Positions 4,516 through 19,030 of a DNA stretch of 22,229 nucleotides are shown one piece after another; the stretch's first letter is position 1; every line of letters starts with the position of its first letter. The position numbers and the translations under genes were made by a program. Under the pieces are notes generated by a model that saw only the letters and a list, made by a program, of their open reading frames with translations, ran no database searches and was not told where the DNA came from. The stretch comes from a virus, in IMG/VR virus record IMGVR_UViG_3300032323_000048, positions 1-22,229 of that record; one strand, given 5' to 3'.

Positions 4516-4572
4516 TTAGCTCACCGTATCTTCCACGCCAAGGCCAGCGTTGGAGTTAAGCGCGGCCTTATT
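4516..4572 (-). other. Possible frameshifted C-terminal extension of the giant polyvalent protein
   Basis: Just before its stop the 2338-aa gene reads AGA CCC CAA TAA on the - strand. A +1 slip on the CCCC at 4573-4576, or loss of one C, opens an 18-codon tail: NKAALNSNAGLGVEDTVS, ending at the TAA at 4516-4518. The tail has protein-like composition and ordinary codons, and its stop lies 7 nt from the terminator-like hairpin at 4481-4508, where a gene end would be expected. Either a programmed +1 frameshift, a recent indel or a homopolymer sequencing error could explain it. It could also be leftover non-coding DNA. Confidence 0.35.
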
Positions 4573-7500
4573 GGGGTCTGGTTTCACCTGTGATCGACAA
4601 GAACCGTTGTGCAAGGCGGTACTGACGGTCATCGATTCTCTCCAGCAGTTCGTCCTTCTCTGCCGTAGTCCGGTTAGATTCCAGTACCTGCCGTTTAATT
4701 TTGGACAGTTCGCCAAGCTGCTGCCTGACTTCTCCCGACACGCTGGCGTTGGCCAGTTTGTTGCGGTACTTATCCAGAAACTCCTGCGCTTCTTCCTTCT
4801 TGCCTGATTCAGCAAGCCGCTTGTACGTGCCCTGCACCTGTTCAACTTCCAGTATGCGCTCGTACGCAGCGTCCAGAGTGCCTCTGCCTTCAACCGGCTG
4901 GAACAACCCGCCGATGAACGGCATCTTGCTGGTCTTCATGGTCGGCTTCTCAACCGCGCTGGCTTCCGTGTTCAGGATAGGGTTGGCCATCGATGCAATC
5001 GCAACACCCAGCGCCCCCGTGTAGCCACGGATCAGGTAGTCAATCTTGATCGGGGTCAGTCCCGCATCGCCTGTGACGCTGCCCAACATCTTGGCAAACT
5101 CAGTCGTCGTGTCACGATACCGCTCCCCCGGCATCATGGTGGTCTGCTCACGCTTAGACTCAATGTCACCACCGAAGAACGAACGGCCAAGGATGACTTC
5201 AGTTGCTGGCTTGATCGCCGCAGGCAACGCAAACGGATTAGATAGCGCCACCAGCTTGCCCATACCCTTGGTGATGTCGCTTGCACGTTCGTCTTCTGCT
5301 GCCATATTGAATACCGCTTCTGGCAATGCCTTAAACAGATACCCCAATTCAAACGGGATAGGTATCTTCATCGGCTCTTTCGAGAACGGGGTGTACACAA
5401 ACCAGTTGCCCAGACGCTCTTCAGGCTTGGCGCGTTTGTACGCCTCGTCATCTTCCATCGCAGCCGCATACGCCAGTGTGCCCGCAGCCAGCAACAACCC
5501 TCTCGTATACAACTTTTGCCTGATTTTTAGCTGTTCACTGTACGGCATCTGTCCTGTAAACGCCCGGTACAGCACATCCAGACCTTGAATCTGCGCGTTG
5601 AAGAACGGGATGACTGTGGAGAGCATCTGCATGGACGGCGACAAACCGCGACGGCTAAAGTTCATCGACTCCAGTGTGCGCATGTACGCCTGCATCTCGG
5701 ACATACCCTTGGCCAGCGAGTCTTTGTAGATCACAGCACGGGTTGCGGCATCGCCCTGCATGGCCAGCGCATCGGCCTTCATCATCAACTTAGTCCAGCC
5801 CGAACGCCCAAGACTCATATCACGCAAAGCTTTGGCCATATCCTGCTCGTCGCCTGTCATGACGTTACTGGAGATAGCGCCTGCCTGCATCAACTTAATT
5901 TCTTCTGGGCTGCGTCCGGCCACCATCTTGCCTAGCTCTTTCATCGAATTAAGCACCGGAACGCCGTCTGTGCCGGTAGTAAACCAAGCAGTTAGCGGAT
6001 CACGGATAGCCTGACGTACAGCGTAAGCTGGGTTGCGAGTGACAAACTGTCTTAACCAATTAGCGGGTAGGCCCATGATCTTAATCGCCATCGGGATGGT
6101 GGTCTTGATGCCTTCCATACCTTTAACAATCAGGTCTGCCGGGATGCCATACATATCCGAGTCAATGACGGCAAAGTTGTCTACGCCTTTGACCTTGTAG
6201 CGAACCGTGTTTGGCCCATCTGGACCTTTACCTTCACCAATCTTGCTTGCGATACCCAGACGGCCCAACAACATGACGTTGTCTTTCATCATCTGGTTAC
6301 GCAACCCCATGCGTGTTAGCACAAACGCATTCTGAGCCGAGCTTGTAAAGATTGGAAGAATTTCCTTGTTGTCGCCAACAAGCTCGTGCAGCATCGGTTC
6401 GCTCTTGATGTCAGCAATCCGAACAGGGCGCTCTTTGTCGACCATCAATTGCAACTCGCCACCTTGCACACGGTAGAACGGTACGTAGTCAATCGCTTTT
6501 AGTTCAGCCGCTTTACTTGGTTTCATGTAGCCGGTCTGCACAAGGAAGTCTATCAGCCCGTTGTTGTACTCTTTGTAAATCTTGGCGGCTTCTTCAAACG
6601 CAGCGCGGGCTTTGTCGTTCCCCTTCAACTCAGCCATAAGCCGGTTGTAGTCTGCTTCTGGCACGGTAGGATCTTCAAAGTTCAGCTTGTTCCACCCCAC
6701 CTGTTTGGCACGTTTACCTGCCGTATAGATGGTAAACATGTGTTCCAACTCGGTGCTGTTCTTAATGCCAGACTTCTCCAGCGCCTGCGCAACCTTGACC
6801 ATGTTGGCACCGGGAGTGCTGCTGTAAAAAAACTCCATGCCGCGCTTAGTCATCTGCTTAACTAGTGACAGCGGGCCGTTAGTCAGCGCCTGTGTAGCAT
6901 AAGCGTTGGCTTGCTGGCCAAAGCGCAGGTAGTAACCTGCCTGCTCGGCTTCCAAGTCAGAGATAACGCCCGCGTCCAGACCTTTCTTAATAGCCGCATC
7001 GAGCGCCGCGTACTGGTCAACGAACTGCACACGACCTGACAAACCGAGGAAGTTGCCACGGAGCTTGTCAATAACGCCTTTCTGGCCACCAACAAAAGAA
7101 CTGCCGTAGCGGCTTGGCTCAGTCTTGGTACGGAAAGCCATCACGCCATCAGCCGCCCGGTAAGGACCGACAGTGCGCTCATTGAAAGCTTTGTTGGCCA
7201 TCTTTATGGCGTAGAACACATCCGACGTAGACATTTCAGCCATGTTCTTAAAACCCATCTGGCGGAGCGCCGAGCGAACCATGCCGACAAGCTCTTGCAA
7301 CCAGCGTCCAGCCTTCTGCTTAAAGTTCTCAGTGATGCGTTGCTGACCGGTGTAGGCAATGATCTCGCGCAGTGCGGCCAGATCAGGATCGCCCTTTTGT
7401 TCCGTGGCAAACGTCATGGCGTCAACAGCATGAGTCCACAATTGGTCACCGCCCAGTTTCTTGGCCAGCTTCTCAAGGTCTGTTGCGCTGGCGTACTTCT

Positions 7501-10500
7501 TCAGGCGGCCCATACCGATCACGGTATCGATGCCGTAGTGGCCGACCATCTCGTGGAACAACGTCTCTTCCAAGTCCTTGATGTTAGTGTGCTGGTCGCC
7601 CACCACAACGATGGTGCCGTCATCCGGCAGCACTACGCCTTTAAATGCAGAGCCGGGCTTGTAACCAAACGCCACCAAACGCTTTAACGTCTCAGGCTTC
7701 ATGCCTTCCAGTGTTGGCTCGTACACCAAGTTCACGCCCTTGGGCAGCTTAGAGAGGGTCTCTACTATCAACTTCTTTGCTTCTGCCGGGTCAACCGGCG
7801 TAGCTGGTGCTTTGGCTGTGCGGAACGCAAGCCCTGCGTCGTCATCGTATTCAGAAACAACGCCTTCGGCCATGTCTCGCGCAAGCTTGCGCTTCTCTGC
7901 GGCTGTTTGTTTTCGCGTAAGCTTTTCTTCTTTGGCTTCTTGACTACCCACACGCAACGGCTCGGCCCTCTTTGATTTTGGGCTTATGTCCGTAACTTTT
8001 TCTTGCTGCGCAAGCGTCCGAGATGCTTTAGCCAAATCTTTAAGATTCTTAGCAGCACTAACGCGCTGTGCTTTAGGCGTAGCTTCTTCCACCGCCTCTG
8101 CTGTTGGCGCAATGCGTGGCTTAGATTCTTTGGTTGTCGTCCAACCAAGGCCCTTAACTGGCTCACGGTCGGCGAACGCACCTGTAGTTTTCTTCCGCTG
8201 CACCGGCAAGCCAGTGCCTTTTTCTTTCATGACGATGCGCTTGCCCGATGGGGTAGTGCGCTCAACCGGCACTACTGTGCGGGTCAACTTCGGCATACCT
8301 TCGCCTGTAGTAATACGGCGCTTGCGTTCTTCCTCCTGCTTGCTTTGCAGTTCTTTGGCTTCACGCAGTTTGCCATCTGCTACGGCAGTATCACGACGCA
8401 GTTTGCCAGCCTCAACCTGCGCTGCACGACGCTCTTCGCCAACAAAATCCACGTCGGCCAGCTTCTTTTCCAGCGCAGCTAAACGCTCTTTGTCTTTGAC
8501 AACGCGCTCATCCGCCGCAGCCAGCAGACTTGCGTTGTCTTCGGTGCGTTCTTGCCTGTCTCGGGCTTCTTTAACAACAGCGCGGGCTTTTGCAATTTCT
8601 TCTTTCAGGTCTTCGGCTTCAGTAAACAGTGCGTCCAAGTCAGGCGACATGCGTCCGCCTTCAGGCATAGAGTCTTTCAACTCAGCCAGCCGCGCTTCAA
8701 ACGCTTGCGCTTGCTGCTCAAACTTCTGGATGATGGGGCCGTACAACGCTTGACCGCGCTGCTCACGAATCTGTACCGTCAAATCGCGGATAGTCTGCAA
8801 GATGCTGACTTCTTTGTTTTTGATCTGATCTTTGAGCTTGGCTGCTTTTGCCGCTGCCTGTGCGGCTGCGTATGGCGGGCGTTTAGCTTCGTTTGCCGCC
8901 TGCATGTCTTTCAGCGTTTGGCGCAGAGCAGCAACCTGCTTTGAGCCAAGGAACTTACGGAAGTTTGCGGCGTTAGCGCGAACGACACCTAAATCTTCTG
9001 CACCAAACAACGACTGCTGTCCGCCCTCAATACCGGGGGCCTGTGCCTGCCGCATGGAACGCAGCGCATCATTTAGCTTGGACAGTTCGTCCTGTGTTTT
9101 TTGCCCGCGCTGTACACGAGTCGCAATATCTTCGGCAAGGTCTAGTACCTCACGTGTGGCAATACCGTCTTCAATCGCCGTCTGTGTCTGCTCAAGCAAA
9201 GCGCGGGTGTTGCGTGGGATGGTGCCTGTCGGTATGACGCGCTCAAGCAGACCACCAACGTAATCGCGCTGACGGCGCAGTTGACCTTCCAGTGTCTGGG
9301 CAGTTTCGCCACGCTCCTCGGCAACGCGTTGCGCTTCACGGTAGTTACTCTGCGCACTCAACGGGCCTTCTGTTGGAAGCCCCTGCTTTCTTAGTTCAGG
9401 ACGCGCCACCAGCAACCGAGCGCGAAGCACGTCCAGTTGTCTAAGCAAAGCGGCTTCAGTAGCTTGGCCGTTTATAAAAGCGTCGAGTACGGCATCTATT
9501 TGCACCGCAGCTTTTGCGGCTTGATCCGTCGTGATAGGCTGCTGCCCCTCCGCCGCACGTTCGTTTGCGACCTGATTCATCACAGCGTCAACATATTGCG
9601 GCTTGGCATCTAGTGCTTGTTGACGAATAATGCCCGAGGTAGCAGAAGCAAACTTACGCATGTCCGGACGGGAGCTATCTAGCGTCTCGCCTTTGGCAAT
9701 CTTGTCCAGACTTTCCTGTATTTTTAACAGCGCATCACTAGCGTTTTGTTGGAACTCTTGTGCTTTAGCGCGATAGTTCTGCTTTTGCAGTCCGGGTTCG
9801 ACTGAAACGCCGGGCTTCATTTCTTCGGCGTAACCTTCGAGCTCTTTCAACAAGTCGAGTTGCGTAGCCGCTTTGGATTCAGGTAGGGGGGCTTCGCTGA
9901 TGCGCTGTAGTGCCGCCTTTTCTTCTTCGACTTGTTCTCTTGTTTTTTCAGCAAAGACACGCCCCTGCGCCATCTCGCCAGCAAGCGACTTTACTTGCAG
10001 CTTTAGGTAGTCGTTAACTTCCCTGTTTTGTTTGGCTGTGAACTCAGGAACTTGTAACTCGCCGCTGTAAACTTTTTGCATCAGCAGCGGATCACGACTG
10101 ATTACGTCGGCTACATCCGGCGGGGTTAGCATGTCAAAGTGGCGAAGGCCGCCCAGCGCCTCATCAAATTCTTTTTGCAGTTGCGTCATGGGGCGCTGCT
10201 GCGCAGCGGCAGCAGTCTGATCCATCCACGCCTGCATCGCATCTTCTTCTGCCTGCGGCTTGGTTTTTTTCTCTTCTGTCTTATAGCCCTGTACTTCTGC
10301 AAAATACTCTTCTGGCGTTAGCCCGGAGACGCGCAACTCTTCCCTCAAGCCGGACAGCTTGGCTTTAATTTCTTTGTATTCAGGCGCAAGTGCTTTAAGT
10401 TGATTGCGAACGCCTTGCAGTTCTTCTGTCTGCTGCGCAAACAGTTCTCGTTGCTCTTCAGTAGCATTCTTACCGGGCTTCTTACCCCGCGCTGCCAGCA

Positions 10501-11584
10501 AGCCTTTCTCTTGTTTTTGCAAAGCCTCAAATTGGTCGCCAATACGCAGCGCATACTCGGGCTTGGCTTTCTCCGCCGCTTCTGCTTCGCGCAGTTCTTT
10601 GGCTTTCTTTGCCGCCTCCAGCGCATCGCCTCTGGCAACTTCTTCTTTTGCCGCACCAACTTGTGCCCTGCGACCAACAACACCGAGAGGACCGCCAAAC
10701 AGTGTTGCACCATAAGCGGCTTCGCTGTACTCCTTCAGAGCGTCGTCGCTCATCAAAGGCATATTGGCTTGCCAACGCTCCAACATCTGCTGCCCAACTT
10801 CAGTTGGAATTTCCCCCAGCAACGCTTTGGGCGTTCCTTTAGCCAGCGATACTGCGAGTCTTTCTTCAGCCAGCTTGCGGGCTGCGGGGGATACCAGTGC
10901 TTGAGCGCCTTCTTTTTCTGCAACGCCCAGTATGCGACTCATCAACTTGCCGCCAAATGGGATCACCATCGAGGCGTATTCCATACCGGCTTGGCCTGTC
11001 GCAGACAGTGCGGTCTTAGCAGGGTCTTGTTGAAGTCCTTCAGCAGCGCGTCGTTCAGCGCCTGCGCCATAAGACTGCAAGAATAGCGGCGAAACTGCGC
11101 CAGCAATACCCAGCACTGTCGAACCCACCGGACCCAAAGGAGCACCGGCCATAGCGCCCAAACGCCCAGCAGTAAACGCTGCCCCCAGTTGAGGGCTCTG
11201 TTCTGCAATGAAGCTGGGTGCTTGACTTATTACTTCTCCCGCAGCGGGGAAGAAGCCTTCTTTTGCGTACTTCTCTTTAACTTTCTCAAGGCTCAGTGCA
11301 GACGGCGTCTTTTCTTCTAGCGCACGGGCACGGGCCAAGCCGGACTGTGCGGCTTCTTCAACACCAAACGGGGTTTCAACCGCCGTACGTATAGAAGAGC
11401 CTAACTTCTTAGCGCCGCCAATACCGCTCTCAATGATGCCGGGTTCTTTTGGTTTGGCTGGCGCTTCTGCCTGCACCCCAAACGCCTGCGGATATTTTTT
11501 GTACGCCTCAAGAAACGCTTGTTGTGCGTTCATCCCCTTGGGGATTTCGTAGTAAGACCCGTCAGGCAGAGAAAGGTATGCCAT
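4568..11584 (-). CDS. Giant polyvalent virion/ejection-type protein with metallopeptidase-like and LPD38-like domains
   Basis: A 2338-aa protein with SD GAGG 5 nt before the ATG. Residues 1-36 form a small domain (SLPDGSYYEIPKGMNAQQAF). About 115-220 is Gly/Ala-rich and hydrophobic and could be membrane-active. About 300-1200 is dominated by Glu/Lys/Arg/Ala helices, probably coiled coil. HEMVGH at 1344-1349 matches the HExxH zincin signature, with a possible third ligand in REIIAY downstream. About 1840-2010 (RNPAYAVRQAIRDPLTAW, then VIPFFNAQIQGLDV) looks like the large polyvalent protein-associated domain LPD38. Such giant multi-domain proteins are carried in phage particles and injected into the host. 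It is the last gene of the late module, after two probable internal virion proteins. Two AFRT motifs flank the peptidase-like segment. Cleavage, targets and enzyme activity are not proven. Confidence 0.8.
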   Translation of the reverse strand: MAYLSLPDGSYYEIPKGMNAQQAFLEAYKKYPQAFGVQAEAPAKPKEPGIIESGIGGAKKLGSSIRTAVETPFGVEEAAQSGLARARALEEKTPSALSLEKVKEKYAKEGFFPAAGEVISQAPSFIAEQSPQLGAAFTAGRLGAMAGAPLGPVGSTVLGIAGAVSPLFLQSYGAGAERRAAEGLQQDPAKTALSATGQAGMEYASMVIPFGGKLMSRILGVAEKEGAQALVSPAARKLAEERLAVSLAKGTPKALLGEIPTEVGQQMLERWQANMPLMSDDALKEYSEAAYGATLFGGPLGVVGRRAQVGAAKEEVARGDALEAAKKAKELREAEAAEKAKPEYALRIGDQFEALQKQEKGLLAARGKKPGKNATEEQRELFAQQTEELQGVRNQLKALAPEYKEIKAKLSGLREELRVSGLTPEEYFAEVQGYKTEEKKTKPQAEEDAMQAWMDQTAAAAQQRPMTQLQKEFDEALGGLRHFDMLTPPDVADVISRDPLLMQKVYSGELQVPEFTAKQNREVNDYLKLQVKSLAGEMAQGRVFAEKTREQVEEEKAALQRISEAPLPESKAATQLDLLKELEGYAEEMKPGVSVEPGLQKQNYRAKAQEFQQNASDALLKIQESLDKIAKGETLDSSRPDMRKFASATSGIIRQQALDAKPQYVDAVMNQVANERAAEGQQPITTDQAAKAAVQIDAVLDAFINGQATEAALLRQLDVLRARLLVARPELRKQGLPTEGPLSAQSNYREAQRVAEERGETAQTLEGQLRRQRDYVGGLLERVIPTGTIPRNTRALLEQTQTAIEDGIATREVLDLAEDIATRVQRGQKTQDELSKLNDALRSMRQAQAPGIEGGQQSLFGAEDLGVVRANAANFRKFLGSKQVAALRQTLKDMQAANEAKRPPYAAAQAAAKAAKLKDQIKNKEVSILQTIRDLTVQIREQRGQALYGPIIQKFEQQAQAFEARLAELKDSMPEGGRMSPDLDALFTEAEDLKEEIAKARAVVKEARDRQERTEDNASLLAAADERVVKDKERLAALEKKLADVDFVGEERRAAQVEAGKLRRDTAVADGKLREAKELQSKQEEERKRRITTGEGMPKLTRTVVPVERTTPSGKRIVMKEKGTGLPVQRKKTTGAFADREPVKGLGWTTTKESKPRIAPTAEAVEEATPKAQRVSAAKNLKDLAKASRTLAQQEKVTDISPKSKRAEPLRVGSQEAKEEKLTRKQTAAEKRKLARDMAEGVVSEYDDDAGLAFRTAKAPATPVDPAEAKKLIVETLSKLPKGVNLVYEPTLEGMKPETLKRLVAFGYKPGSAFKGVVLPDDGTIVVVGDQHTNIKDLEETLFHEMVGHYGIDTVIGMGRLKKYASATDLEKLAKKLGGDQLWTHAVDAMTFATEQKGDPDLAALREIIAYTGQQRITENFKQKAGRWLQELVGMVRSALRQMGFKNMAEMSTSDVFYAIKMANKAFNERTVGPYRAADGVMAFRTKTEPSRYGSSFVGGQKGVIDKLRGNFLGLSGRVQFVDQYAALDAAIKKGLDAGVISDLEAEQAGYYLRFGQQANAYATQALTNGPLSLVKQMTKRGMEFFYSSTPGANMVKVAQALEKSGIKNSTELEHMFTIYTAGKRAKQVGWNKLNFEDPTVPEADYNRLMAELKGNDKARAAFEEAAKIYKEYNNGLIDFLVQTGYMKPSKAAELKAIDYVPFYRVQGGELQLMVDKERPVRIADIKSEPMLHELVGDNKEILPIFTSSAQNAFVLTRMGLRNQMMKDNVMLLGRLGIASKIGEGKGPDGPNTVRYKVKGVDNFAVIDSDMYGIPADLIVKGMEGIKTTIPMAIKIMGLPANWLRQFVTRNPAYAVRQAIRDPLTAWFTTGTDGVPVLNSMKELGKMVAGRSPEEIKLMQAGAISSNVMTGDEQDMAKALRDMSLGRSGWTKLMMKADALAMQGDAATRAVIYKDSLAKGMSEMQAYMRTLESMNFSRRGLSPSMQMLSTVIPFFNAQIQGLDVLYRAFTGQMPYSEQLKIRQKLYTRGLLLAAGTLAYAAAMEDDEAYKRAKPEERLGNWFVYTPFSKEPMKIPIPFELGYLFKALPEAVFNMAAEDERASDITKGMGKLVALSNPFALPAAIKPATEVILGRSFFGGDIESKREQTTMMPGERYRDTTTEFAKMLGSVTGDAGLTPIKIDYLIRGYTGALGVAIASMANPILNTEASAVEKPTMKTSKMPFIGGLFQPVEGRGTLDAAYERILEVEQVQGTYKRLAESGKKEEAQEFLDKYRNKLANASVSGEVRQQLGELSKIKRQVLESNRTTAEKDELLERIDDRQYRLAQRFLSITGETRPQ

Positions 11585-11601
11585 GTAATCCTCGTTATTT
11601 A

Positions 11602-13275
11602 TTACCTACGCACGTTAGCGTTCTGCGGCAACTCACTGACAATCGTGGGGTTCATCATCTGCTCAATAGCAGCCATGTAGTGTTGCGGTGTCGGGTATCT
11701 CTTTTGGAAGTCGCCCAACGTGTCTTTTGCCACCAAGTCATTGTATTCTTTTAAGACAAGTGCGGGGGTAATCTGCCCCCGCGCTCCCAGACCGCCCAGC
11801 CGCGAATTTGCATATATGCCCGCAACTCTTTCTGCCGAAACATTTTGCTCACGCGCCCGTATGTTTTGTTGTTGCTGCTCAAATATAGTCCGGCGATCTC
11901 CAGCAGCCAATGTATTTTGGTTGCTAACAATTTCAGCAGCTGTTTTGAGATCGGTCTTGTACAAGTCTTGCACAGCAGCAATCTGCGCCTGTTTAACGCC
12001 GAGGTCTGCTTCAAACGCTTTTTGTTTGTACTGTTGAGCTTCTTTCCAGTCCCCACGCTCTTCTGCGCGGCGGGCTTCTTCAATCATTGCGCTTTGTTTA
12101 CGGCGCTCCAACGCAGCTGCTTCCAGTTTTTCCAAGCCTTCTTGATACTGCTTGGTACCCACCTGCGCACCTTCTGCGATATTCTGAAGTGCATACTGGG
12201 ACTTGCCTCCAGCAATAGCTAAACCGGAATTAACAATCGCCATGTTGAAATTACGCGCTTCTCTGCCAGCAGCTTTCTCTTCTTCTTTACCCAGCAAAGC
12301 TTCTAAACCAGCGTAGGCTTTGTCTTTTGGTTTGCTTTCTTCTCGGGCGGTTTCTAAATCGGCAAAGCCCCGTGCAATCTTGTTGCTCAGATCGTCATAA
12401 GCCGCGGTGCCCGGATTCATTTTTTGAAGCCGCTTAAGTTCCGCAGTCAAGTCGCCCGGCTGGCTTGGAACAAAGTCTGGTGCTTTTTCAGTACTAGGGC
12501 CTGTCTTTGGTCCTGCACCGGGGCGTGTAGCTGCGCCAGTTTTTGCTTTTGGTGTTTGTGGTGGTGCTTGTGGCGGGGGCGGGGGCGGGGGCGGTGGGTC
12601 TATTGTATTGTCCACACGACGAACATCAGCCCAAGTTGCAGATGGAGTTGGTGAAGTTGGTGCCGCTGCTAGAGTTTTATTGCGTAGTTGTGCTAAACGC
12701 TGTTCCGCAAATTGGCGCTGCGGTTCAAAAAGCGTAGTGGCTAAGATATTCTCCAGCCGTGCTATTTCATCCGCCGTATCTTGGGATGCTGCTTCTCCCA
12801 TCCGGGTTGCAACTGTTTGATTAAAGCTGTTTGCACGAGGCGCTGGGAGCATTTGGTCTCGCCTAAATCCCTGACCTACCAAACTCGGGCCTTCTCCAGC
12901 AAACGCCACCATCCCGCCGCCTGCGTACTCATCTGCGTACGGGTCGCCATATCCGGCAATACCGCCATCAGCCATGCCCTCGACGTTCTGCGCAGGCAGC
13001 ACACCAATGCCTTGCTGTTCGGGTAGTTGTGGCTGGGGTGCGGCTGTTTGTTGCGGCATCGGTGCTGGTGCGCCCATTTGTGCAAGTCTTTGATCTGCTA
13101 TGGTCGGCTGTTTCGCAACTTGTTGCCCCGCTGCACGAAGTTGTTCGCGTCGTTTACTTTCAGAAGATGCCAGCGCCAGTATGTAGGTGTCGGCTTTGTG
13201 TAGCCGGGCGTACTGAAGCAACTGCTCATCCGACATCTTAGCCAAGCGCGAGGTGAGTTCGTTTACGTTCAACAT
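11602..13275 (-). CDS. Low-complexity virion-associated protein with polyproline tract
   Basis: A 557-aa protein whose ATG is 2 nt after the upstream stop, so translation is probably coupled; the GGAG ahead of it is far off (about 11 nt). Residues 1-50 form a helical N-terminal domain (MSDEQLLQYARLHKADTYIL) seen in many environmental phages. DGGIAGYG (about 103-110) and AGGGMVAFAGEG (118-129) are short glycine motifs shared with neighbouring virion genes. Nine consecutive prolines occur at 227-235, followed by a Pro/Thr/Lys-rich linker. About 300-480 is long charged helix, likely coiled coil. There is no enzyme motif. The position between other probable internal virion proteins and the giant polyvalent protein suggests an inner-core or ejection protein. 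Function is not established. Confidence 0.65.
   Translation of the reverse strand: MLNVNELTSRLAKMSDEQLLQYARLHKADTYILALASSESKRREQLRAAGQQVAKQPTIADQRLAQMGAPAPMPQQTAAPQPQLPEQQGIGVLPAQNVEGMADGGIAGYGDPYADEYAGGGMVAFAGEGPSLVGQGFRRDQMLPAPRANSFNQTVATRMGEAASQDTADEIARLENILATTLFEPQRQFAEQRLAQLRNKTLAAAPTSPTPSATWADVRRVDNTIDPPPPPPPPPQAPPQTPKAKTGAATRPGAGPKTGPSTEKAPDFVPSQPGDLTAELKRLQKMNPGTAAYDDLSNKIARGFADLETAREESKPKDKAYAGLEALLGKEEEKAAGREARNFNMAIVNSGLAIAGGKSQYALQNIAEGAQVGTKQYQEGLEKLEAAALERRKQSAMIEEARRAEERGDWKEAQQYKQKAFEADLGVKQAQIAAVQDLYKTDLKTAAEIVSNQNTLAAGDRRTIFEQQQQNIRAREQNVSAERVAGIYANSRLGGLGARGQITPALVLKEYNDLVAKDTLGDFQKRYPTPQHYMAAIEQMMNPTIVSELPQNANVRR
12575..12598 (+). repeat. GGGGGC tandem repeat, G-quadruplex-capable, encoding polyproline on the - strand
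   Basis: Three GGGGG runs separated by single C, followed by CGGTGGG, satisfy the G3+N1-7 quadruplex pattern on the + strand, which is the template strand for the 557-aa gene. Read on the - strand it encodes prolines 227-235. The tract could slow transcription, slip in copy number during replication, and stall ribosomes. Confidence 0.75.
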
Positions 13276-13277
13276 GA

Positions 13278-14276
13278 TTATGCTTTCTCCATGTCATAGA
13301 GCAGCAGTTCAGACAGCCCCGCAGGTGCATCGGATTCTTTAATTGCTCCGCCTTCTTTTCTACCTTGCATCTGACCATACGGATTACCAAACATACCGTA
13401 AGCAGCTAGACCCAGACCGCCAAGCTGAGAAATCGTGGATGGCGCAGCTTGATACATCGTAGAAGCAGACTGCGACAAAGGCAAACCGCGCAGCATGTCT
13501 GACATGAACGCCAACTGCTGATAAGGGTGCTGCCGCTGCGCGGCAAAGTCTGCGTACTGCTGCTCCAATCGCTTTTGTTCCAGCCCCTGCTGTTGCGCTC
13601 CCATGCTGGCTTGGCCCTGAATAACGTCTTTTTGCTGGCCAAACTGCGTCTGCCCTAGCTGGCCCAAAGTATTTGCCATTTGCCCTGCGGTCTGTAGCCC
13701 CTGTAGTCCGAGCGTGGAACCAAACTGCTGTGCTTGGCGGGCTTGCTCAAAGGCGGTCTGCATCCCCCGCCCGTAAATATCTGCTTGTTGCTGCCCAAGG
13801 TTACGCTGGCGCTCTGCTTCCAGCAGTGCTGATCTTGATCCGCCAAATGCACCACTCTGCATAGCGCGAGACTGCTGCTGCAAGCCTTCCATAGATGAGC
13901 GCCGCGCGGCTTCACGCATCTGTGGGTCAAGTGCGTTTTGTACATAAGGCGACATGTACGCCTGCATTGCGTACGGGTTAGTGGCCATGTTCTGGTAGTT
14001 TTGCCCAGCGCCTAGTGCTCCAAGCCCCGCCACACCCCCCATCTGAGTAGCCAACCCTAACTGCTGTGCTGGCTGAAGATTAGCCATCCCCTGTTGCGCT
14101 TGTTGTTGCATGGGCGTAAACCCGGCAATCCGCTCCCCACCATAAGTCTGATAAGGTGCATTTGAAAGTGCTTCGGTTTTTCCGAGCATCTTTTCGACGT
14201 ACGGTTTAGCGTAGTCAGGGATCGATGTTTGAGTGACGTTTTGGCTACTCGGTGCTGGCTGCTGTGGTGCGCACAT
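13278..14276 (-). CDS. Gln-rich virion-associated protein (probable internal/ejection protein)
   Basis: A 332-aa protein with SD GAGGT ahead of the ATG. The N-terminal part (PDYAKPYVEKMLGKTEALS, then YGGERIAGFTPMQQQAQQG) and the central segment AYMSPYVQNALDPQMREAAR with AFGGSRSALLEAERQRN belong to a pattern I recognise from many environmental phage virion proteins. Between about 110 and 260 it is extremely Gln/Ala-rich and helical, probably an extended bundle. The C-terminus has a hydrophobic stretch (GGLGLAAYGMFG) and the glycine motif KEGGAIKE. No catalytic residues are seen. It sits between the GNAT gene and the polyproline protein, two nucleotides from the latter. A role in the internal core or DNA ejection is inferred from position and composition. 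Confidence 0.6.
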   Translation of the reverse strand: MCAPQQPAPSSQNVTQTSIPDYAKPYVEKMLGKTEALSNAPYQTYGGERIAGFTPMQQQAQQGMANLQPAQQLGLATQMGGVAGLGALGAGQNYQNMATNPYAMQAYMSPYVQNALDPQMREAARRSSMEGLQQQSRAMQSGAFGGSRSALLEAERQRNLGQQQADIYGRGMQTAFEQARQAQQFGSTLGLQGLQTAGQMANTLGQLGQTQFGQQKDVIQGQASMGAQQQGLEQKRLEQQYADFAAQRQHPYQQLAFMSDMLRGLPLSQSASTMYQAAPSTISQLGGLGLAAYGMFGNPYGQMQGRKEGGAIKESDAPAGLSELLLYDMEKA

Positions 14277-14283
14277 AATGACC

Positions 14284-14745
14284 TCAGAATGTATATATCA
14301 TTTGAATTGCCGCTTCTTTAAAACCCATTCGCTTCCAAAGTTTGGCGACCCTCAAATCAGTTAGCGCAGCAACCGATGCTCGTTTGACGCCGCGCTCTTT
14401 TAACTCTTCCAGAATAACTTTTACTAACTTTTTACCCACACCATTTCGATGTTCTTTCAGGACAAAGATGGTGTCTTCTTGCGCAATTAAGTCACCGTTG
14501 TGCATGTCATTGGTAAGATAGACGTTACTGTATCCCACCGCGCTGCCTTCAAGCCGCAAAATAAACGTCAGCAAATCACCCCTGTCACCGGCTGCTACGT
14601 ACTGCTCCAATCTTGGGTTGTACGGTGAACACGGTATGCCGTCCGCTTCAAGTCTTTCTGTCATCTCCGCGTAGTGCTGCCGGTATAACGGCTCAAGTTC
14701 TTCGTACGTTTCCTTGAACCTACCAAGATGAAACGTGTAACTCAT
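14284..14745 (-). CDS. GNAT-family N-acetyltransferase
   Basis: A 153-aa protein, the usual GNAT length. Residues 58-68 (LLTFILRLEGS) and 69-79 (AVGYSNVYLTN) look like the central beta strands. HRNGVGKKL at 99-107 is the acetyl-CoA pyrophosphate-binding loop, with His at the first position where Gln or Arg is more common. RASVAALTDLRVAKLWKRMGF at 122-142 is the typical C-terminal strand, helix and GF turn. It would transfer an acetyl group from acetyl-CoA to an amine; the substrate is unknown. The start overlaps the upstream stop as ATGA, so it is translated together with virion proteins, suggesting late expression and possibly modification of virion or host proteins. Confidence 0.85.
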   Translation of the reverse strand: MSYTFHLGRFKETYEELEPLYRQHYAEMTERLEADGIPCSPYNPRLEQYVAAGDRGDLLTFILRLEGSAVGYSNVYLTNDMHNGDLIAQEDTIFVLKEHRNGVGKKLVKVILEELKERGVKRASVAALTDLRVAKLWKRMGFKEAAIQMIYTF

Positions 14746-16430
14746 GCGGGCAGGAGCTTCTCTGCCTTGGTATTACGTGCTACTTGGTTTTTACCCACGG
14801 TCTTGCGTCGTGCTTTCTGCACACGATCCATCATCGCGTAGAGTTTACGGGCACCGGCTTCTGTGGAACCGTTTCCGATTTCGGACACAATACGTGCGGG
14901 TATAACAAACTCACCATCAGCAAGACGAGCAGGTTGCCTGTTACCAATAGAAGCAGGGATAGAATCCGAAACTCCATCGCCGGGTCCTTTCAATAGACGC
15001 CCACCATCAGAGTAATCGCCCAAGTGCGAAATGCCACCACCTGTCGCATACTGGTTAAGCTCATTCAAATCGTACCGCAGGTTGGGAGTTCCGCCATCAG
15101 CAAACTTAATTTCACCCGTGTATGAATCAACCGGCGCATCAATACCTTGCGAAATAACATTCTGTGGCATTGGGCGCTGCGTCATCGGGTTGCTATACAG
15201 CGAAGTCTGAAGCTGCGACTGCGGGTACATTGTGTTATCAGCCAACGCATTCTGAGCAGACATCATTTCCACCGGGCCACCCACCGCCAAACCCATCACG
15301 CCGCCTTCAGCAGCCTTTTTGTACTCAGGACCCGGCGCTTCGTAAGGCGTCTGTGCCGTAAAGATTGGTTGAAAGTGTAGCTGCTCCGCGCTCCCAGTAT
15401 ATGGTTGTGATGCTACGTTGGTTGCGCCGTAGTCAAACTCGTATGGACGGATCAATCCGGGGGACTGATTGGCGCGGCGGCGCATTTCCTCTTCCATTTT
15501 TTCGCGCTTTTCTTCTGCGTAGCTCATGGCCGGGCCAGCAACGCCTGCGGCAACGGAATAGCTTGGCATCGCGTCGTATAAGGCTTTCGCTCCGTCAACA
15601 CCCCCGGCGTATACTTTTTTAGCGCCCTCGCCCACCTGCGACATATATTTAGAGTAGGCAGAAGGGGGTGGGGTAACGGGTGCGCTAGGTGCCACGGGGG
15701 GAGTAAAGCCCCCCAGCGCGGGTTGCGGGCGAGAAAGATCCGCTATTTGCGTTTGTGCTGGCGCAGTCGTTGGAGGTACTACCGATGCTGGTGCAGGCGG
15801 CACTACAGATGGGGGAGGGGCTACTTTTGGTAAGCCACTTGCAAAGTTAACATTTGGATACAGTGGGGTTTGAGTCAGCGCAGAAGATGTCATACCCGGT
15901 GTTGTAGCCCCCGGCGTATTAAACATTATTGATTTCGAAGCAGCGGGGTTGAACGTCGGGTTTACCGAAAATGGATTCGACCCTGTCCCGGCAAAATTTG
16001 CTGCATCGTCTGCAAAACCTGTTATGGCTGTTTGGGCAGCATTAGCTCCTGCTGCCCCCGCTTTAGCACCTGCCGCAGCGCCCATAGCATTTAATCCGCT
16101 TGCCAGACCAGCGCCACCATAAGCGCCGAGACCGGCCAAGAGGCCTTTTTTCAGACTGCCGGTGGCAGCGGTATATCCAGCCCCCGTAATGAGCGCAGCA
16201 GACAGCCCGCCGGTAAATGGGGCCAGCCCAAAGCCAATTAGTGTTGGGAGAAGTGAGCGTAAAAAACTGGCTTCAGGTAACCCCGTTGCTGGGTTGATTG
16301 TGAGGGAGCCGCCATGTGCCATGGCAAGAGATTGCAAACCGCCGACTTCACCGGGGGTCATATGCACGAGGACTTTATCGTCTCCGCGCCCGGCGCTCTG
16401 TACGTGGTTGGCTAGTGTGTGGAGGCTCAT
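14742..16430 (-). CDS. Glycine-zipper virion protein with conserved C-terminal domain (probable internal/tail protein)
   Basis: The ATG at 16430 is chosen because GAGGTAGCG precedes it; a TTG at 16445 would add five residues without a good site. The 562-aa product begins with VLVHMTPGEVGGLQSLAMAH, a pattern recurring in environmental phages. About 55-135 is a Gly/Ala-rich hydrophobic stretch (LLAGLGAYGGAGLASGL) with glycine-zipper spacing, likely membrane-active. The middle is Pro/Ala/Thr-rich and disordered. The C-terminal region (IGNRQPARLADGEFVIPARI, then GNGSTEAGARKLYAMMDRVQ) is a compact domain widely repeated in phage virion genes, preceded by several DGG/GGG motifs. A role in tail or inner-core assembly or genome ejection is inferred. 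The stop overlaps the GNAT start. Confidence 0.65.
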   Translation of the reverse strand: MSLHTLANHVQSAGRGDDKVLVHMTPGEVGGLQSLAMAHGGSLTINPATGLPEASFLRSLLPTLIGFGLAPFTGGLSAALITGAGYTAATGSLKKGLLAGLGAYGGAGLASGLNAMGAAAGAKAGAAGANAAQTAITGFADDAANFAGTGSNPFSVNPTFNPAASKSIMFNTPGATTPGMTSSALTQTPLYPNVNFASGLPKVAPPPSVVPPAPASVVPPTTAPAQTQIADLSRPQPALGGFTPPVAPSAPVTPPPSAYSKYMSQVGEGAKKVYAGGVDGAKALYDAMPSYSVAAGVAGPAMSYAEEKREKMEEEMRRRANQSPGLIRPYEFDYGATNVASQPYTGSAEQLHFQPIFTAQTPYEAPGPEYKKAAEGGVMGLAVGGPVEMMSAQNALADNTMYPQSQLQTSLYSNPMTQRPMPQNVISQGIDAPVDSYTGEIKFADGGTPNLRYDLNELNQYATGGGISHLGDYSDGGRLLKGPGDGVSDSIPASIGNRQPARLADGEFVIPARIVSEIGNGSTEAGARKLYAMMDRVQKARRKTVGKNQVARNTKAEKLLPA

Positions 16431-16481
16431 CGCTACCTCATCCAATAAAATTTGTCAAAGTTTAACACTTCACTACCCGAA

Positions 16482-16802
16482 TTACCCAACTTTCCAGTTG
16501 GTGCCGTCTGAATAAACCGGCACTTTGCCGCTGCCGCCGCCTGCCACCGTGGTACCAAATGTTGTTACCGACGAGTCAATGACAAACGCTCTAGCCCCCG
16601 CACCTAGTGTAGCCGCGCCGGGCAGCGTTGCTACTTCGTAAACGCCGCTTAAACAGAACTGTGCTGCAAGGCTGTCGATGGTGGCGAAGTACTGGCGCAG
16701 GATGTTGTTAAGCGTGTCGTGGTAGTTCCGGTCGTACTCTACCGGTGCAAATGGCATTAGGGGCGCTTTAGTAAGCGCAATTGTTTTAGTCCGTACTGTC
16801 AT
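16482..16802 (-). CDS. Small tail-associated protein
   Basis: A 106-aa protein. Its SD AGGAGG (16811-16816) partly overlaps the stop codon of the upstream 740-aa gene, linking the two. Residues 22-50 (VEYDRNYHDTLNNILRQYF) are helical and conserved-looking. The C-terminal half is Gly/Ala/Thr-rich and ends in VPVYSDGTNWKVG, a strand-turn ending often seen at the tip of phage tail proteins. Position directly after the nozzle-type gene suggests a small tail or connector component. No function is recognised with certainty. Confidence 0.55.
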   Translation of the reverse strand: MTVRTKTIALTKAPLMPFAPVEYDRNYHDTLNNILRQYFATIDSLAAQFCLSGVYEVATLPGAATLGAGARAFVIDSSVTTFGTTVAGGGSGKVPVYSDGTNWKVG

Positions 16803-16807
16803 TTGTA

Positions 16808-19030
16808 TTACCTCCTGCCGTCAGGCCGCACATCGAGTCTCGGCACACCTAACTGCCACTGTGTACCTAGCGTATCTGACTCAATCTTGAATGCCATCTG
16901 CCGTCCGCGTACTCGGCTATACACAATCTCGGTGAACTCCTGCACGTTGTATACCTGCTGCCCGGCGTAAGACTGCGCTGACTGAACGGTAGGACGTGGC
17001 GCAACACCATAACCAGAACCGGGGTTCTGCCGTGGGCGAACCACAAACTTGACACTAGGTGTGTTTGGCGCGGGTGTCGTAGAGTTATCAAAGGTGATGT
17101 CCGGCAACATGCGCCACACAAATCCATAATTGTGTCCGTCGCCAATATCAAAATCTGACGTTTGAATGTAAGCGCTGATTGGGCTGGGCGGGTTTGTACT
17201 GCCGTCATCCACTATGGCCTCGTGATACACCAGCAGGTTAGTAGCTGTTGCTGCCATCGGGAACTGACGCAGTGGGCTGTCCAGCCACGCTGTGCGACCT
17301 ATTGTGCCGTAGTACCACACGCGGTCGAGGTAGTTAAAGATGACGTAGCGGTCGATGACATCGGAATTAGCCGAGCAGTAGAACCACCAGACTTCTGAGT
17401 AACCTTCGTTCGTGCCAGAAAAGAACTGCTCCTGCTGGTCACGGTTGATGTCTTCAAACACATATTGTCGTACTGAGCACGGCAATGTTTCAACCCGACC
17501 GGAGTAAATATAAAACTTGTCTACGCCCATCCAGTAAATGACACCCGACGCGGTTGCCATTGCATTTTGCGAAGCAATCGAGATGTTGTCAGCAAGCAAA
17601 ATAATCTGCCAGACTTCTGGCGCACCAATAAACTGCATCGCGTAAATGGCTGTATCTGTCCAGATTGCAATCTCTTGCCGCGTTTGCAATGCCCCAACGA
17701 TGTATGAGCCGTGTGACAGCCGCCTGTCTCCGGCAAAGTTGGTGGCGATGTTGGGGTCCCACACAGTGTAGTCTTCTGCATTCGACCAGCGAATCTGCAT
17801 AGGATCAAGCGTCGTGGAAGCGTACGTGCCTGTTGGGTCATTACAGCCAAACGCAATCAATATGCGGGCCTGATCTGATACAAGGATTTCATTAACTTCT
17901 GTAGGGCAGTAAGCATCTGTTACCGTCGAAGTCCACCCTACCGGGGTAGAAGAGGTGGGCGATAGCACGACGCCACGAACAGTAAAGCTGGGGCTTGCTG
18001 CTACTCCGGGTTGCCAAATGTAAATAGACCCGCCACGTGGGTTAAACAGTAGGTACTCACCAAAGTTAGATTGGCTCCATAGTCGCAAAGCAACTTCAAC
18101 ACCTACTGCTGTCGGAAAACCTTCGCCCCATCCGGGAAACGCTGTTGACTGCGAAACCAAGTCACCGCTGTTATGAGACGCAGCAGTCGTGCCATCAGCG
18201 CCGCGAACACAACCAGTGAAGTCAGTCGCAGTTTTACCTGAATAGGTAATGTACTCGCCGTCAATCCAAATGGCACCGCTGGCAGTGAAGGTGGAAGTGC
18301 TTACTACGGTAATGGTTGTTACAGAACTATTGATTGCGCCATTAAGTGTAGAGGAAGGGCTACCCGGAATGAATCCGCCCCACGGCGAGACACCCCACCC
18401 TGTACCGGTAGTGTTAAGTGCTGGGCCTACACTAATCTGATACGCCGCATCAGTGGCAGCGCCGCCAGTACCGCTATCGGAAGCATTAGAAAGTACTGCC
18501 GCGCCGGGAGTGCCAATTGGAGATACTGCACGAGCCGAAATGGTGTACGAAGTGCCAGAGATAACAGTAACAATCTGATATTCCTGATTAAGCACTGCCG
18601 CTGTTATGTTGCCCCCTAGACTCGCAGCTTGTGAGAACGTGACAAAATCCCCTGCCTGTAAGGCAGAAGTTGCCGTATCAGTAACTGTGATAATAGAAGA
18701 CGGCGTTACCGTATTCGCAGCAAACGTAGTTGAGTTAGTTGTGGTTAAGCGTATCGGTGTAATGTCGTAGTACGCGCCCCCGTTCTCTAAATAGAACTTT
18801 AAGTTAGTTCCAACACCCGCAATGTTAAATCCCTTGAGTGTTACCCAGTTCCACAAGGACCGGCATACACCAAGAAATGTGTTGTACGACAGTGCTGCCC
18901 AACCACCGATTTTCTCAGGGTAGCCAGAACGAAAACGCACCTTGTCGCAGTCGTACCAGCCACCTTCGTTGGCAAGCGTGGTTCCTTCGCGGTTAACGCC
19001 CGGCTTGAACTGAAGTTTCTGTAATGGCAT
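16808..19030 (-). CDS. Probable tail nozzle / tail tubular-type structural protein
   Basis: A 740-aa protein beginning LQFKPGVNREGTTLANEGGW and VRFRSGYPEKIGGW, a signature of a family often annotated as phage stabilization or tail protein in podovirus-like genomes; it resembles the tail tubular B/nozzle role in T7-like phages by size and place. Two beta-rich modules appear inserted: about 108-175 (ITVTDTATSALQAGDFVTF) and about 229-296 (SSVTTITVVSTSTFTASG), both of a type reused across phage virion proteins. The rest is rich in Trp/Tyr and beta strands, consistent with a beta-propeller, but this is inference. The ATG lies 2 nt after the previous stop with a poor SD, so coupling is likely. A collar or stabilization role is an alternative to nozzle. 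Confidence 0.6.
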   Translation of the reverse strand: MPLQKLQFKPGVNREGTTLANEGGWYDCDKVRFRSGYPEKIGGWAALSYNTFLGVCRSLWNWVTLKGFNIAGVGTNLKFYLENGGAYYDITPIRLTTTNSTTFAANTVTPSSIITVTDTATSALQAGDFVTFSQAASLGGNITAAVLNQEYQIVTVISGTSYTISARAVSPIGTPGAAVLSNASDSGTGGAATDAAYQISVGPALNTTGTGWGVSPWGGFIPGSPSSTLNGAINSSVTTITVVSTSTFTASGAIWIDGEYITYSGKTATDFTGCVRGADGTTAASHNSGDLVSQSTAFPGWGEGFPTAVGVEVALRLWSQSNFGEYLLFNPRGGSIYIWQPGVAASPSFTVRGVVLSPTSSTPVGWTSTVTDAYCPTEVNEILVSDQARILIAFGCNDPTGTYASTTLDPMQIRWSNAEDYTVWDPNIATNFAGDRRLSHGSYIVGALQTRQEIAIWTDTAIYAMQFIGAPEVWQIILLADNISIASQNAMATASGVIYWMGVDKFYIYSGRVETLPCSVRQYVFEDINRDQQEQFFSGTNEGYSEVWWFYCSANSDVIDRYVIFNYLDRVWYYGTIGRTAWLDSPLRQFPMAATATNLLVYHEAIVDDGSTNPPSPISAYIQTSDFDIGDGHNYGFVWRMLPDITFDNSTTPAPNTPSVKFVVRPRQNPGSGYGVAPRPTVQSAQSYAGQQVYNVQEFTEIVYSRVRGRQMAFKIESDTLGTQWQLGVPRLDVRPDGRR
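16811..16816 (-). promoter_or_regulatory. Strong ribosome binding site AGGAGG
   Basis: AGGAGG on the - strand, 8 nt before the ATG of the 106-aa gene. It lies at the very end of the 740-aa coding sequence, next to its TAA stop, so ribosomes ending one gene are placed to start the next. It is the best SD in the late module. Confidence 0.75.

Follow-up and report, generated by a model that had tools for sequence, protein, structure and literature searches.

The window, a 22,229-nucleotide stretch of viral DNA, carries an open reading frame whose translation is a giant protein of 2,338 amino acids (4568..11584, minus strand; phrog_18222). Its conserved C-terminal region holds an LPD38 domain (residues 2046–2224; 4913..5449, minus strand; Pfam PF18857, E=3.6e-28), the sole domain that Pfam recognises in the protein, and because this domain is clear we place the protein among the phage polyvalent proteins, as Iyer et al. 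2017 use the term (PMC5512222). It is a very large LPD-type protein among phage structural and ejection-type neighbours: upstream of the giant gene lie head and tail genes and a gene resembling that of a phage DNA ejection protein (13278..14276, minus strand; phrog_4287, E=4.7e-13). A GNAT acetyltransferase gene (14284–14745) also sits amid these structural and ejection genes.

Alignment and structure modelling reveal a folded HExxxH metallopeptidase-like domain at residues about 1258–1468 (7181..7813, minus strand), most blocks of which reach a pLDDT of 80–96 in an AlphaFold2 model covering residues 1229–1528. The first-pass annotation had labelled its signature HEMVGH (residues 1344–1349; 7538..7555, minus strand) as HExxH; this was a miscount, and the label was rejected, as three residues separate the glutamate from the second histidine and the motif is HExxxH. 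The accompanying suggestion of a third ligand in REIIAY fared better. H1344, E1345 and H1349 are invariant in an alignment of 43 sequences (alignment A3), and so is E1407 of REIIAY (7364..7366, minus strand), the predicted third zinc ligand. An HE-x(3)-H motif with a downstream glutamate ligand is the signature of zincin-like peptidases of the HExxxH subset, which has been described among polyvalent peptidases together with a prediction of autoproteolysis (PMC5512222). Like the polyvalent proteins described there, the window protein is giant and apparently multidomain, combining LPD38 with a putative zincin-like peptidase. A BFVD structure search matched the HExxxH fold to other polyvalent proteins (E=4e-8), neither Foldseek nor a sequence profile gave a significant PDB match to the domain, and a second-look structure list consisted mostly of zincin-type metalloproteins at weak Z scores of up to 5.2.

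Two copies of the tetrapeptide AFRT flank this domain, around F1254 and F1484 as first reported. The N-side copy (residues 1253–1256, context DDDAGLAFRTAKAPA, codons GCG TTC CGC ACA; 7817..7828, minus strand) lies at the low-confidence edge of the model (block mean pLDDT about 56), and the C-side copy (residues 1483–1486, context YRAADGVMAFRTKTEPS, codons GCT TTC CGT ACC; 7127..7138, minus strand) falls in a disordered linker (block mean about 38). Low-confidence linkers therefore border the folded HExxxH domain, which agrees with the first-pass description of motifs at the edges of a catalytic-looking domain, and the model places neither motif reliably at the active site. The protein contains exactly these two copies of AFRT, compared with about 0.03 expected from composition. 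Judging the pair by repeat count alone was nevertheless dropped, since repeated 4-mers are about as frequent in this protein as chance would give (71 observed versus 61 in shuffles); conservation and position were used instead, and it is by these, not by the existence of a repeated 4-mer, that the AFRT pair exceeds chance.

When 29 sequences of the window family were aligned with MAFFT, without anchoring the motif, R1255 and R1485 proved invariant (29/29), with F or Y at position 1254 in all 29 sequences and at position 1484 in 28. G1480 is likewise invariant, and the surroundings are variable, with a mean entropy of 1.88 bits over the remaining linker columns. The two edges vary together, as in the variants GTAYRLRE/GQTAFRLR and GTAYRTRE/GQIAFRTK, and the third residue is the same at both edges in 9/18 (P=0.008, in a test from which phage relatedness was not removed). 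In the close relative L007, a YkuD-type L,D-transpeptidase module has been inserted further upstream (residues 1286–1425), and it lies between an additional tag of its own, DDAGLAFRG, and DSGMVFRT. At the DNA level, the two AFRT copies have only one of four codons in common (1.3 expected), so the constraint acts on the protein; DNA duplication as the source of the pair was rejected on the same codons. Conserved as they are and lying outside the fold, the two motifs are, as judged from sequence, very probably a joint tag of some kind.

Similar peptides recur at module borders in other giants. We collected 160 LPD38 loci, which yielded 131 non-redundant giant proteins, and defined module borders as the ends of local homology (BLAST ends). 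With homology collapsed by window identity and phylogeny only partly controlled, the motif [RKLMIV][FY]S[LRKV] occurs at homology breakpoints of these 131 proteins in 51% of 79 independent cases versus a background of 24% (p=4e-7), and scrambled versions of it are not enriched at the borders of LPD38 giants. A blind border scan of about 4,000 tripeptides placed YSL at the top, with LYS, RYS and KFS also high and FSR and FRT alone showing only nominal enrichment. The motif, fixed beforehand, was then applied to a replication set of 64 independent giants fetched via the ART-PolyVal domain (set B, ART tails excluded), where it is found at borders in 31% versus 15% (p=0.002), again with phylogeny partly controlled. 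In set B the FR-type motif alone shows no enrichment at breakpoints (p=0.45), and we therefore tie the FRT wording to the window's family. An alignment of homologues had been proposed at the outset as a check on the motifs; it finds them conserved in relatives, and in polyvalent proteins at large equivalent motifs stand where modules meet. The first-pass annotation had named poor conservation, or a position within folded domains, as grounds against its reading, and the two motifs show neither.

Only the placement of the motif carries the signal, because its bulk density is barely higher in giants than in other ORFs (0.89 versus 0.78 per 1000 aa). There is no C-terminal enrichment of the motif at extreme ORF termini, and N-terminal matches were set aside, as they come largely from one conserved 519-aa protein family. 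LNFSRRG near LPD38 was likewise excluded as a joint: the consensus NFSRRG recurs in aligned distant LPD38 relatives and is part of the conserved region.

Measured from Pfam borders, the F/Y of the motif lies 9 aa past the end of ART-PolyVal in 6/6 proteins and 9–12 aa past the end of LPD1 in 6/7, and the Kinase-PolyVal domain of L246 stops 5 aa short of KSGRS (within KLKSGRS). The wording of the tag differs between phages and recurs inside one giant protein. Where the window protein has AFR[TS], L204 has K[ST]xDR (seven matches), L260 a KSADR-type tag (four), L194 [FY]QR (five), L231 [FY]Q (seven), L218 RFAV (five), L246 LKSGRS (four), L265 FMP[TA] (three) and L098 an LPTFSR-type tag (five exact copies, with six FSR in all). 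Neighbouring ORFs were also examined at twelve loci; none was found to repeat a tag, and the recurrence is confined to the giant ORF. These tag classes were partly picked after the data had been seen, and the two tests that follow hence permute against other phages. With ART regions masked, a protein's own ART-tail tetrapeptide is found elsewhere in that protein 1.5 times as often as the tails of other phages (p=0.0006), compared with 0.99 and 1.19 for two letter permutations and 1.27-fold for the reversal (p=0.026). In seven proteins, the tails of LPD1 and ART, which are unrelated domains, agree at 18 of 21 positions, the permutation mean being 11.3 (P=0.0008).

The constant +9 spacing past ART-PolyVal, and the NPDI that ART tails retain ahead of the variable tag, would fit tags that have no separate function, being simply where the conservation of each domain runs out (in a terminal strand), or a linker bias. 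We regard this as improbable: homologous ARTs vary in tag between phages, yet each agrees in tag with non-homologous domains of its own protein, and the ART tail is of low confidence in the structure model (pLDDT 50–57).

Codon identity bears on a further possibility, namely that the copies mark recombination joints in the DNA, where the shuffling of modules has left behind short stretches of homology. Tags do coincide with homology breakpoints, and in L098 the copies have 43/50 codons in common versus 27.6 expected. L098 and L218 are exceptions, however, and their repeats with the same codons may be partly duplicated modules. At most repeated tags, codon identity is near the codon-usage expectation: besides the low count for the window pair, codons in common number 1/10 in L265 (3.4 expected), 10/33 in L246 (9.9) and 18/40 in L231 (17.3). 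Peptide-level selection is for this reason the simpler account, and DNA recombination is already unlikely as a general cause of the tags; we give this explanation very little weight.

As for what might read the tags, an HExxH/HExxxH motif is present in 123/123 full-length LPD38 giants (the window gene at 4568–11584 and loci L019–L177), mostly 620–900 aa upstream of the conserved PFFNA core of LPD38. This suggests that the peptidase and the C-terminal region are an obligate unit in LPD38 giants. The embedded peptidase is our leading candidate reader, both because the motif is present in all of these proteins and because such processing has already been proposed. We infer that the tag is read by a peptidase, probably this one in proteins that have it. 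That the tags are proteolytic processing sites is a reading we hold tentatively, at a little under an even chance. In the model that we favour, the tags would be short protein-level recognition motifs in flexible linkers between the modules of a polyvalent protein, which would combine several effectors and is probably ejected. Any one phage would have its own tag wording, reused at several unrelated joints of one polypeptide, and the polyprotein would be divided at the tags, either ahead of its delivery into the host or afterwards. The cutter would probably be the zincin-like HExxxH/HExxH peptidase embedded in the chain, in those proteins that have one. Taken whole, this explanation (joint tags that are most likely processing sites and probably read by the embedded peptidase) seems to us about evenly balanced.

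The first-pass annotation had gone further and proposed that the motifs release the peptidase from the polyprotein, by itself or by a phage protease. Self-cleavage by the embedded peptidase is in part borne out, in that conserved linker sites do lie at module borders; similar sites stand at exposed module joints and are consistent within a protein. Against it, the giants of L246 (2656–16203) and L198 (4876–14571) lack both an HExxH/HExxxH motif and any recognised peptidase, yet carry repeated tags (LKSGRS and FSV), so a peptidase in cis does not accompany every tag. Release of the peptidase alone is in any case too narrow a role, for tags are found beside modules of every sort. Among phage proteases that act on polyvalent cargo, P1 Pro is the best documented, and its site in the major capsid protein is E120/S121 (PMC9024508); the tags, as F-R-T/S, have no glutamate at the likely scissile position and do not match cleavage after Glu.

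Tags in giants without a zincin motif would suit a role in docking or packaging, in which hydrophobic-F-[RS] peptides bind a virion component and so hold modules in the head or feed the ejection channel. The tandem tags at some joints, such as FSRTDALYSK in L137, are also in keeping with such a role. A precedent comes from DarB, a polyvalent cargo protein of phage P1, which is packaged via an N-terminal signal of 30 aa whose deletion-mapped core is residues 6–10 (PMC9024508). This core (L178, complement 10469–17236) reads MGVFR in MNKLSMGVFRCSS, and GGVFS in Cronobacter phage JK004, and both resemble the joint peptides GMVFRT and GAVFRT. The DarB signal is thus also a short V-F-R peptide in polyvalent cargo, but it is a single N-terminal copy acting in packaging, not a module joint. 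The likeness is moreover one short match, DarB of phage D6 does not have it, and the authors caution that the DarB truncations may disturb folding (PMC9024508). If the tags were a shared docking site, they might also be expected to recur in ORFs beside the giant gene, and none was found to do so at the twelve loci examined. We therefore consider docking rather unlikely, though less so than domain-end residues or recombination joints, and prefer processing sites.

Processing by their own zincins has been proposed for polyvalent proteins, a widespread phage cargo, since 2017, without sites at which to test it. A readable phage-specific tag would supply predicted cut or docking sites in many of these proteins, would let modules be delimited from sequence alone and would open the question of processing versus packaging to direct experiment. 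Polyvalent proteins may be self-labelled polyproteins, with a phage-specific cleavage code at unrelated joints and the cognate peptidase often in the same chain, so that modules recombined in would have to adopt the local code; we put this forward as a possibility somewhat short of even. Eukaryotic RNA virus polyproteins, to which Iyer et al. (PMC5512222) also likened polyvalent proteins, combine several functions in one polypeptide and repeat a virus-specific cleavage consensus at its joints, but they have no homology to the window protein, and the sites described here are predicted from sequence. In N4 virion RNA polymerase, too, a domain with a zincin motif precedes a large helical C-terminal region (PMC12633501); this polymerase is packaged uncut (PMC5512222), and its two linkers have no F-[SR] joint tag. 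The text of PMC5512222 contains neither 'linker' nor 'FSR', we found in it no account of a recurring joint motif or of phage-specific tags, and we found no described joint or linker motif in the open-access literature searched, which is weak evidence of novelty.

Two further phages carry comparable peptides. A Dolichospermum jumbo phage (L184) has the similar joint tags ITFSRSD and IRFSRAA, and a Bacteroides phage (L185) has IRFREV as well as VRFRSI 86 aa before HEVVGH.
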